Shown: positions 30,254 to 32,221 of the stretch, piece after piece
Numbering within the stretch: position 1 is the stretch's first letter
Layout of the letters: every line of letters starts with the position of its first letter
Source: Gammaproteobacteria bacterium
GTDB lineage: Bacteria; Pseudomonadota; Gammaproteobacteria; Poriferisulfidales; GCA-002705445
DNA: 32,221 nucleotides
Assembly: GCA_018674175.1 (NCBI GenBank)
Contig: JABHAT010000006.1
Span: 1 to 32,221 of the forward strand
Direction: 5' to 3'
The notes under the pieces: generated by a model
Told to the model about the DNA's origin: nothing
Databases searched by the model: none
Seen by the model: the letters and a program-made list of their open reading frames with translations, nothing else
Program-made: the position numbers and the translations under genes

Positions 30254-30886
30254 ATGCAAAATAAACTTTTCAGCAGGGCTATTTTCAGCCTGATAATGTT
30301 GCTGTTACCTAATTTTGTGTCCGCTGATGAGGCCGCAATTAAGGCTGGCGAGCAGAAGTCTATGATTTGTACCGCATGTCATGGTATTGAAAATAGCAAT
30401 AACCCTGAGTGGCCTAATTTATCACAACAAAGTAAAAAGTATATAATAGAGCAACTTCATGCATTTAGAGGTGGAGTAAGAAATAATGCTTTGATGAGTT
30501 CTCAAGCAATGGGTCTTTCTGACCAAGATATAGTAGATATTGCTTCTTATTATAATAGTATTCCATCAAAAAAAGGTGAAATTGATAGCTCTGCTAAAAA
30601 TGTAGAATTAGGGCAAAGTATTTATCGTGGTGGAATCTATGATAGAGGTGTTCCAGCATGTATGTCGTGTCATGGCCCTAAAGGTTTAGGAATTGATAGG
30701 ACAGGTTACCCTAAAGTTTCAGGTCAGCATTCTGTTTATACTCTCAATAGATTAAAGAATTATAAAGAAGGTTATGATGATAGAAATTCAGTTAGTAAAA
30801 ATTATTCAATAATGAGTGGTATATCATTCAAATTATCAAATTTAGAAATGAAAGCGCTTTCAGAATACTTACAGGGTTTATATTAA
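30254..30886 (+). CDS. Dihaem cytochrome c4
   Basis: A periplasmic electron carrier with two haem c groups, donating electrons to terminal oxidases. The 210-residue precursor has a signal peptide (cleavage after about VSA, residue 24) and two CxxCH sites: Cys39-Cys42-His43 (ICTACHG) and Cys136-Cys139-His140 (ACMSCHG). Likely axial methionines are Met81 or Met86 in the first half and Met187 in the second (SIMSG). Both halves repeat the same c-type fold, including the LSDQDI and LSNLEM helices. A strong GAGGAGA lies before the ATG. It is followed by dsbA 17 bases later, as in pseudomonads. Confidence 0.94.
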   Translation: MQNKLFSRAIFSLIMLLLPNFVSADEAAIKAGEQKSMICTACHGIENSNNPEWPNLSQQSKKYIIEQLHAFRGGVRNNALMSSQAMGLSDQDIVDIASYYNSIPSKKGEIDSSAKNVELGQSIYRGGIYDRGVPACMSCHGPKGLGIDRTGYPKVSGQHSVYTLNRLKNYKEGYDDRNSVSKNYSIMSGISFKLSNLEMKALSEYLQGLY

Positions 30887-30903: not shown

Positions 30904-31539
30904 ATGATTAAGAAAATATTATTTCTACTTATTGTTTTTAGTTCAACTGTTTATGCAGAAGAAAAATTTAATGTAGGAATAGATTTTGAATTAATGAATG
31001 ATAGTCAAAGCCCTTATGTATTAAAAAAAACTGAAAAAATAATGGTTGTAGAAGCTTTTTGGTATGGTTGCCCACACTGTTACGTATTTGAAGATCATCT
31101 ATCAAAATGGAAAGAAAAAGATGCGGATGATATTAATTTTATAAATATGCCAGTGGTTTTTAATAAACCATGGCTATTACATGCAAGAGCATTTTATACT
31201 ATGAAGGCATTAGAAAATTCTGAGCAACTCCATAAGAATTTTTTTATCTCTTACCATGAACAGGGTAGAACATTTCCTAACGTAGAATCAATATTAAACT
31301 TTCTTGAAAGTCAGGGAGCTGATATAGAAAAAGCAAAAAAGATTATATCTTCAGAGAGTGTTTCCAAGAAAGTGCAAGAAGCAAATTACTTATTGGAAAG
31401 TTATAAAATTGACAGTGTTCCAGCAATTATTATAAATGATAAATATAGAATTTCTGGTAGAATGGCAAAAACTTACAAAAGAATGATAGAAATATCTGAA
31501 TATATTATAGATTTAGAGAGAGCAAGTAGAATAAAATAA
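30904..31539 (+). CDS. dsbA: Thiol:disulfide interchange protein DsbA
   Basis: A periplasmic oxidase that inserts disulfide bonds into exported proteins. The 211-residue precursor has a signal peptide ending VYA (residue 18). The thioredoxin-fold active site is Cys56-Pro-His-Cys59 (FWYGCPHCYVFE), the classic DsbA CPHC, and the cis-proline loop is SVPAI (Pro173). CAGGAAC lies before the start. The tRNA-Arg gene begins seven bases after its stop. Likely clients nearby are the cysteine-rich PstS and the copper protein with two extra cysteines at the right edge. Confidence 0.95.
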   Translation: MIKKILFLLIVFSSTVYAEEKFNVGIDFELMNDSQSPYVLKKTEKIMVVEAFWYGCPHCYVFEDHLSKWKEKDADDINFINMPVVFNKPWLLHARAFYTMKALENSEQLHKNFFISYHEQGRTFPNVESILNFLESQGADIEKAKKIISSESVSKKVQEANYLLESYKIDSVPAIIINDKYRISGRMAKTYKRMIEISEYIIDLERASRIK

Positions 31540-31546
31540 TACAGAT

Positions 31547-31619
31547 GCGCCCATAGCTTAAATGGATAGAGCAACAGCTTCCGGAGCTGAAGATATAGGT
31601 TCAATTCCTATTGGGCGTT
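31547..31619 (+). tRNA. tRNA-Arg (anticodon CCG)
   Basis: The 73-base gene folds as a cloverleaf. The acceptor arm pairs GCGCCCA (31547-31553) with TGGGCGT (31612-31618), closing with a G-U pair at 1-72. The D arm is GCTT/GAGC, the anticodon loop TTCCGGA gives CCG, and the T arm is a perfect ATAGG/CCTAT around TTCAATT. The D arm and loop match E. coli tRNA-Arg(CCG) closely. Odd points are an A-A mismatch at 27-43, a four-base variable region and a U at the discriminator position. No CCA is encoded. It lies between dsbA and the copper-protein gene, all on the same strand. Confidence 0.9.
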
Positions 31620-31660
31620 CAAAAACAATTAATAAAATCTAATAGAAGAAGGAAAAATTA

Positions 31661-32221
31661 ATGAACGATAAGCAATTTATGACAGTTTTATTAGGCGTAA
31701 CTGGAGTCATAGTAATTATTTTTTTTATGATTTTCTTTATTGCACAAATGATTGCCCCAGTATCTAAAAAAACAGATGAATTTACAAATAATTCTGTAGT
31801 ACAAAGAATAGAACCAGTTGGTAAATTAAATTATGCTGGATCAGGCAGTTCAGACAATAAAACAGAAACTGAAACTGTATCTGTCGAAAGAGAATCTATA
31901 TGTAAAACAGCAGAAGGTGATTTTAAAACTTATGAAGTAAAAATGCTTAATCAAGGAGATCAAGGGTCTATGATCTTCGAGCCAGCTTTTATAAAAATCA
32001 ATACATGTGACAGTATAAAATTTGAAATGGTTGACGCAGGTCACAATGCAGTTACCGTTGCTGCGCCAGCTGGCAGTGTGCCGTTTGATACAAAATATAA
32101 ACCAAGCACTTTAGTTCAATTTGATACTAGTGGAATTTATCTATATAAATGCTCACCTCATGCAATGATGGCAATGGCTGGATTAATTCAAGTTTCGGAT
32201 GCAAGCAACAAGGCTGATATG
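31661..32221 (+). CDS. Membrane-anchored pseudoazurin-like blue copper protein (3' end beyond window)
   Basis: This frame starts at an ATG behind GAAGAAGG and stays open for 187 codons to the window edge. Residues 8-32 are one membrane span, followed by a linker with VVQRIEPVGKLN, a motif I associate with the membrane anchor and linker of gammaproteobacterial cytochrome c5 proteins. From about residue 88 it is a pseudoazurin-type cupredoxin (YEVKMLNQGDQGSMIFEP). All four type-1 copper ligands are present with pseudoazurin spacing: His128 (AGHNAV), Cys164, His167 (YKCSPH) and Met172. Cys81 and Cys116 are extra; Cys116 replaces the usual glycine of 'PGD'. It should face the periplasm and carry electrons. 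Very few residues can be missing from the domain itself. Confidence 0.88.
   Translation, partial: MNDKQFMTVLLGVTGVIVIIFFMIFFIAQMIAPVSKKTDEFTNNSVVQRIEPVGKLNYAGSGSSDNKTETETVSVERESICKTAEGDFKTYEVKMLNQGDQGSMIFEPAFIKINTCDSIKFEMVDAGHNAVTVAAPAGSVPFDTKYKPSTLVQFDTSGIYLYKCSPHAMMAMAGLIQVSDASNKADM

Follow-up and report, generated by a model that had tools for sequence, protein, structure and literature searches.

A cytochrome c5 membrane anchor carrying a pseudoazurin-type copper head, with the haem head at the same locus in sister species

A gene at the end of a gammaproteobacterial contig encodes a pseudoazurin-type cupredoxin on a cytochrome c5-type transmembrane anchor and linker, and in sister species the gene at this locus joins the same anchor to a haem c5 domain. 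The most likely reading is that the protein is a membrane-tethered blue-copper electron carrier, made by same-locus replacement of the head on a c5 anchor. The window, that is, the whole stretch of DNA analysed, has 32,221 nucleotides; the family search that it served to seed covers 12 genomes, 11 of which belong to the window's genus, including its own genome (G000). No earlier report of a c5-anchored pseudoazurin or of such a head swap was found in the open-access literature searched. The components (c5, pseudoazurin, tethered carriers) were already known; new are the presence of both head states at one locus in sister species and the recurrence of the exchange.

The 187-residue ORF (31661 to 32221, plus strand) is still open where contig C10 of the window genome stops, at position 32221, and consists of one transmembrane helix, a polar linker containing the conserved RIEPVGKLNY, and a cupredoxin of the pseudoazurin type that has all four copper ligands (Table 1). 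A single long hydrophobic helix lies around residues 3 to 31. Copper-bind PF00127 matches residues 94 to 178 (E 1e-12), and alignment to the solved pseudoazurin 1pmy (E 4.6e-19) brings H128, C164, H167, and M172 into register. Against the pseudoazurin model TIGR02375 the truncated protein reached E 4.6e-26 and 90.8 bits, under the curated cut-off of 109.85; the complete homologue from G006 also falls below this equivalog cut-off (91.6 bits), and the soluble pseudoazurins of the genus reach at most 108.8 bits. The translation lacks the CxxCH haem motif, which four sister species have, and also lacks a lipobox cysteine behind the leader, its first Cys being residue 81, far from the helix. The initial annotation, which had described a single span, a RIEPVG linker, and a cupredoxin with all four copper ligands, is upheld on these points by the ORF, the domain profiles, and the ligand alignment.

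An AF2 model of the complete G006 homologue, built on 18 sequences (mean pLDDT 83.7), has a transmembrane helix at residues 3 to 31, a disordered linker to about residue 89, and a cupredoxin with pLDDT mostly >95. Its best structural matches in the PDB are solved pseudoazurins (TM-score 0.85, by target length). The pseudoazurin fold with its C-terminal helices is met in this homologue; the C-terminus of the window protein is cut off. A disulfide between Cys81 and Cys116 is possible, an idea that comes from the conservation of both cysteines without bond data. The 3' end, which the initial annotation had wanted extended, probably continues on contig C21, judging by synteny with sister species; that contig begins ...IVKFDVNGLYLYKCSPHAMMAMAG... 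and finishes ...SSVMIPAAKTRMSDLFTKNIK.

Table 1. Features of the anchored pseudoazurin-type gene and its upstream neighbours in the window
Feature	Coordinates	Strand	Evidence
Transmembrane anchor, cytochrome c5 family (residues 1-33)	31661..31759	+	Hydropathy; helix 3-31 in AF2 model of complete homologue; similarity to c5 anchors of other Gammaproteobacteria
Conserved c5 linker ...DEFTNNSVVQRIEPVGKLNYA (residues 34-59)	31760..31837	+	Column comparison of c5-head and copper-head proteins, profile tests; homologous linker in PDB 8SMR chain named cytochrome C5
Variable linker with fusion joint, probably disordered (residues 60-89)	31838..31927	+	Alignment; pLDDT < 50 at residues 50-75; 39% linker identity
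Cys81	31901..31903	+	Present in 6/6 anchored copper-head proteins, absent from soluble paralogues (alignment)
Cys116 (INTCDS; Gly in soluble paralogues)	32006..32008	+	Present in 6/6 anchored proteins (alignment)
Pseudoazurin-type cupredoxin domain (residues 90-187, cut by contig end)	31928..32221	+	Domain profiles, alignment to solved pseudoazurins; fold of complete homologue
Copper ligand His128	32042..32044	+	Alignment to 1pmy/1py0/1bqk; invariant across homologues
Copper ligand Cys164	32150..32152	+	Alignment to solved pseudoazurins; invariant
Copper ligand His167	32159..32161	+	Alignment to solved pseudoazurins; invariant
Copper ligand Met172	32174..32176	+	Alignment to solved pseudoazurins; invariant
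96-bp tract identical to soluble pseudoazurin gene on contig C15, read as gene-conversion tract	32009..32104	+	DNA comparison
80-bp tract identical to soluble pseudoazurin gene, at contig break	32142..32221	+	DNA comparison
tRNA-Arg(CCG), conserved 5' neighbour	31547..31620	+	tRNA gene; locus comparison
dsbA-like gene, conserved 5' neighbour	30904..31539	+	Domain profiles, locus comparison
Di-haem cytochrome c (c4-like), conserved 5' neighbour, candidate partner carrier	30254..30886	+	Domain profiles, locus comparison

Comparison shows that the window protein has a cytochrome c5-family anchor and linker. A profile made from c5 N-termini outside the genus gave 56.8 bits on the window protein and 56.8 to 67.0 bits across the copper-head proteins, and -1.0 to 3.1 bits on soluble pseudoazurins. 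Over 200 shuffles of the window protein, the mean score was 32 with the transmembrane segment shuffled, 33 with the linker shuffled, and 12 with both. When copper-head anchors were compared profile to profile with c5 anchors from outside the genus, they matched at 99.5% probability (E 1.1e-22); the initial annotation would have been refuted by a lack of linker similarity to c5 in profile searches, and this did not occur. Between copper-head and haem c5-head proteins, 29 of 59 anchor columns are invariant. The PDB 8SMR chain named cytochrome C5 has the same linker (RLEPVGKV); a PDB search with the isolated anchor and linker returned no match, and the linker was found only together with the c5 head (8smr_L).

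The full 1-187 architecture recurs at the same locus in five further species, with 68 to 72% identity, and for this reason the architecture is not a matter of chance. Four sister species match only over the first ~76 residues (55 to 62% identity), the remainder being a haem c5 domain (CQSCH ... MPAKGG), an assignment that PF13442 and solved structures (cytochromes c5 and relatives, 1cc5 and 8smr_L) confirm. The locus reads c4 - dsbA - tRNA-Arg(CCG) - X - ubiK - outer-membrane protein - glnK - amtB with both kinds of head, where X denotes the anchored gene. At X, six species carry the copper head (G000, G002, G006, G007, G008, and G010) and four the haem c5 head (G003, G004, G005, and G011); G009, whose contig breaks as in G000, is likely a seventh copper-head species. 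Two of the loci are partial, in that the G008 contig starts near the dsbA end and the downstream genes of G000 sit on the separate contig C21. No other PF13442 match of c5 strength was detected in the copper-head genomes, some of which are incomplete, and two c4-like cytochromes and c1-like matches remain. The domain swap of haem c for copper on a c5 anchor, as the initial annotation had proposed, is thus supported both by the c5 profiles and by the haem c5 at the same locus in four sister species, and the N-terminus that it had suggested searching for on c5 and cupredoxin genes occurs on both. As a separate observation, neither the c5 anchor nor pseudoazurin was matched in G001, a 94% complete genome from another genus of the same family.

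The c5-anchor profile finds matches in 17 of the 20 genomes from the order and in 45 of 369 from the class, and the matched anchored proteins that were inspected carry one or more c5 domains, with G311 as the single exception. Within the order, TIGR02375 pseudoazurin is confined to the window's genus. Because anchored c5 is spread over order and class and pseudoazurin is so confined, this comparison shows that c5 was the ancestral head in the order. A tree built from about 16,000 aligned residues, limited by partial genomes and long outgroup branches, requires at least two changes of head type, and two satisfy parsimony. A single origin with simple vertical descent, in which copper-head species fall on one side of a branch, was rejected by the AU test (p 4e-108); since head type departs from the species tree in this way, the history includes reversal or transfer. 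The fusion joint and the fusion-specific cysteines C81 and C116, common to all six copper-head proteins, suggest one fusion event, after which either G004/G011 reverted or the gene passed between species. We also observed that head number varies in other Gammaproteobacteria, where two to four tandem c5 domains sit on the same c5 anchor (L143 142-1686, L152, L147, and L154).

Besides the anchored gene, most of the genus encodes a soluble pseudoazurin that starts with a conventional signal peptide. In the window genome, the soluble gene lies at the end of contig C15, and diverged DNA separates its 96-bp and 80-bp tracts identical to the anchored gene. Contig C15 has a 141-bp overlap with both C21 (on the ubiK side) and C20 (on the dksA side), which explains the contig break. 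The longest tract shared by anchored and soluble genes within one genome was 96 bp in G000, 74 bp in G010, 46 bp in G002, and 11 to 17 bp in G006 to G008, and comparisons between genomes gave 11 to 27 bp. The identical tracts suggest gene conversion between the two genes. The overlaps at the ends of C15, C20, and C21 further hint that the anchored gene of some strains has a longer conversion tract than C10 shows.

We infer that the anchor stays uncleaved in the mature protein, for which there are no localisation or biochemical data. The anchor helix has about 28 residues and no A-x-A end; anchor identity among copper-head species averages 75%, whereas the leaders that are cleaved from the soluble paralogue average 44%, and dN/dS in the anchor (about 0.01 to 0.16) indicates purifying selection. 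As far as can be inferred from sequence alone, these properties speak against cleavage as an ordinary signal, the second outcome that would have refuted the initial annotation.

The respiratory setting was surveyed across the genus. The bc1 Rieske protein was present in 11 of 11 genomes, and the oxidase of the window genome is of the aa3 type, its CuA subunit lacking a fused cytochrome c domain. COX1 was single in most of the genus, with two copies in G004 and none seen in G003 and G009. No copper nitrite reductase was found in the 11 genomes of the genus, in a search limited to the copper type that did not extend to cd1 or nitrous oxide reductases. In G004, a c5-head species, a second haem-copper oxidase (602-aa frame) adjoins a 453-aa frame with cytochrome c matches (G004:C10, about 9.8 to 11.9 kb).

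In the mechanism that we propose, the haem head of an ancestral membrane-anchored c5 would have been replaced by a pseudoazurin head at the original gene position. The mature protein is predicted to be held in the inner membrane with its periplasmic head on a linker of about 58 residues, and the copper head, working beside cytochrome c4, would carry electrons from bc1 to the CuA site of the aa3 oxidase, by analogy with the tethered shuttling done by cytochrome cy or c5 in other bacteria. The cytochrome cy linker has 69 residues, of which about 45 are enough for the oxidase (PMC7876108), and c5 has been proposed as a carrier to cbb3 oxidase in Neisseria (PMC2924362). Copper in place of haem may cut the iron (haem c) cost of this electron-transfer step, as inferred by analogy with plastocyanin and cytochrome c6. 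Both the bc1-to-oxidase shuttling and the iron sparing are inferences without expression, redox, or activity data. Two functional claims of the earlier reading, that the anchor keeps the carrier next to its oxidase and that the swap saves iron, did not advance beyond inference: the oxidase is aa3-type, and any iron saving is at most partial because two haem cytochromes c4 are retained. The anchored copper protein may even be redundant, as cytochromes c4 and a soluble pseudoazurin are also present.

Among the alternatives, the one that survives best, which we nonetheless consider unlikely, is that the anchored cupredoxin serves in copper handling or against stress, for example by storing copper for oxidase assembly or by donating to a periplasmic peroxidase, and is not a respiratory carrier. 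In its favour, cupredoxins can donate to peroxidases, as lipid-modified azurin does in Neisseria (PMC10452240), and a respiratory role for the anchored cupredoxin lacks direct evidence. Against it, the copper domain replaces a c5 head on a c5 anchor, beside c4 and dsbA as the c5 of sister species is, no other c5 remains, and the electron-transfer copper ligand set of pseudoazurin is intact. Donation to denitrification enzymes is very unlikely. This is the classical role of soluble pseudoazurins, which donate to nitrite and N2O reductases; the reported source is Pearson et al. 2003, cited in PMC10452240. In a search limited to the copper type, however, no nitrite reductase was found in any of the 11 genomes, and most have a single aa3 oxidase. 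An ordinary secreted pseudoazurin with a cleaved signal peptide and a chance resemblance to c5 is all but ruled out: the genus does have a true signal-peptide pseudoazurin of the same family, but the window protein scores 57 bits against the independent c5-anchor profile where soluble paralogues score about 0, the corresponding locus of sister species encodes this anchor with a haem c5, and the anchor is strongly conserved under purifying selection, with a helix that lacks an A-x-A end. An assembly or binning chimera of an anchored c5 gene and a soluble pseudoazurin gene at the contig end can be dismissed almost entirely. The window gene does stop at a contig break, in DNA that it has in common with the soluble gene, but five other genomes contain the fusion in full (two inside contigs over 200 kb), real divergence interrupts the shared tracts, and the fusion-specific cysteines are kept in six of six proteins.

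Beyond the window's genus, exchange of the head recurs in at least two other bacterial groups, on a c5 linker behind a signal peptide in one, and as tandem pseudoazurins on an anchor (seen once) in the other. The first is the family of G194 (40 genomes, 0.8 to 1.3 Mb), with the locus X - HAD hydrolase - xerC and hflX upstream in two genera; the HAD and xerC neighbours were checked only for retrieved loci. In 30 genomes of this family, X encodes a signal peptide and c5-type linker (MREEAIxxR...SVC..DCG) followed by pseudoazurin, and in six species of one genus the same leader is joined to a c5 domain and pseudoazurin is absent. Eight sister species of that genus and G398 of another have pseudoazurin on the c5-type leader, immediately followed by a short, independent c5 gene that has a leader of its own. 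This tandem layout looks as if either head could be attached to, or detached from, a single leader, which is no more than a possibility. Loci with pseudoazurin and a short c5 with its own signal peptide in tandem include L248 3107-4035, L255 2797-3727, and L254 2575-3532. In G300, from another family, the copper form adjoins HAD and xerC. The tandem case is G311, a 5-Mb genome of another family, in which a transmembrane anchor and linker lead to at least three tandem pseudoazurin domains; this protein scored 245.8 bits to TIGR02375, above the cut-off. As a side observation, tRNA-Arg(CCG) lies beside the exchanged gene in two unrelated families (the window, 31547-31620; L242, L245, L246, L247, L249, and L254). 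The wider loci differ (dsbA side vs hflX side), as does tRNA orientation, and either coincidence or a recombination hotspot could account for this.

Among known systems, the membrane-anchored cytochrome c5 (CycB-type; PDB 1CC5, 8SMR chain L) shares the anchor, the linker R-x-E/K-P-V-G, and the place by cytochrome c4 and dsbA in sister species, whereas the window protein has a blue-copper head instead of a haem c head (CxxCH). With pseudoazurin (TIGR02375; 1PAZ, 1PMY) it shares the fold, the His-Cys-His-Met ligands, and, in complete homologues, the C-terminal helices, but differs in its membrane anchor and long linker, two extra cysteines, a two-residue deletion, and a sub-cut-off equivalog score. 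It does not fit a soluble cleaved-signal pseudoazurin, given its conserved c5-type transmembrane anchor, a distinction for which biochemical data are lacking. One plasmid record, the only one to cover 80% of the query, was rejected, as it translates to a signal-peptide pseudoazurin of the ordinary kind. Cytochrome cy of Rhodobacter capsulatus likewise combines a transmembrane helix, a long flexible linker, and a carrier head and, so tethered, carries electrons from complex III to IV (PMC7876108), but has a haem head and an anchor of another family. Other cupredoxins also sit at the membrane (Laz of Neisseria, a lipoprotein, PMC6277709; auracyanin, halocyanin, and sulfocyanin). These differ from the window protein in cupredoxin type and attachment, and to our knowledge none has a c5-derived anchor or a same-locus haem counterpart. 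In the plastocyanin/cytochrome c6 replacement, a copper carrier likewise replaces a haem carrier for one electron-transfer step, but as two separate soluble proteins rather than by head exchange on one anchor at one locus.

A bolder reading, which we would neither press nor discard, treats the c5 N-terminus as a mount with interchangeable heads: in several streamlined marine lineages of Gammaproteobacteria, haem c5 and copper pseudoazurin would have replaced each other on it in situ, more than once and in either direction, with tandem copper-plus-haem genes as intermediates and gene conversion with the soluble paralogue keeping the copper head in step. If true, it would be a respiratory counterpart of the plastocyanin/cytochrome c6 exchange. 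Replacement of a haem carrier by a copper carrier is a textbook low-iron adaptation of photosynthesis. A clean respiratory case, with one anchor, one locus, and sister species, would allow its cost and benefit to be measured directly, and pairs with the same anchor, the same neighbours, and different metals make it testable whether head type tracks iron or copper supply and whether the oxidase needs the tether or the metal. Cytochrome c5 anchors serve as modular mounts, and labelling such genes as just pseudoazurin or just cytochrome misleads annotation. The exchange between copper and haem heads is seen in some small-genome marine bacteria whose sister species keep the haem version.
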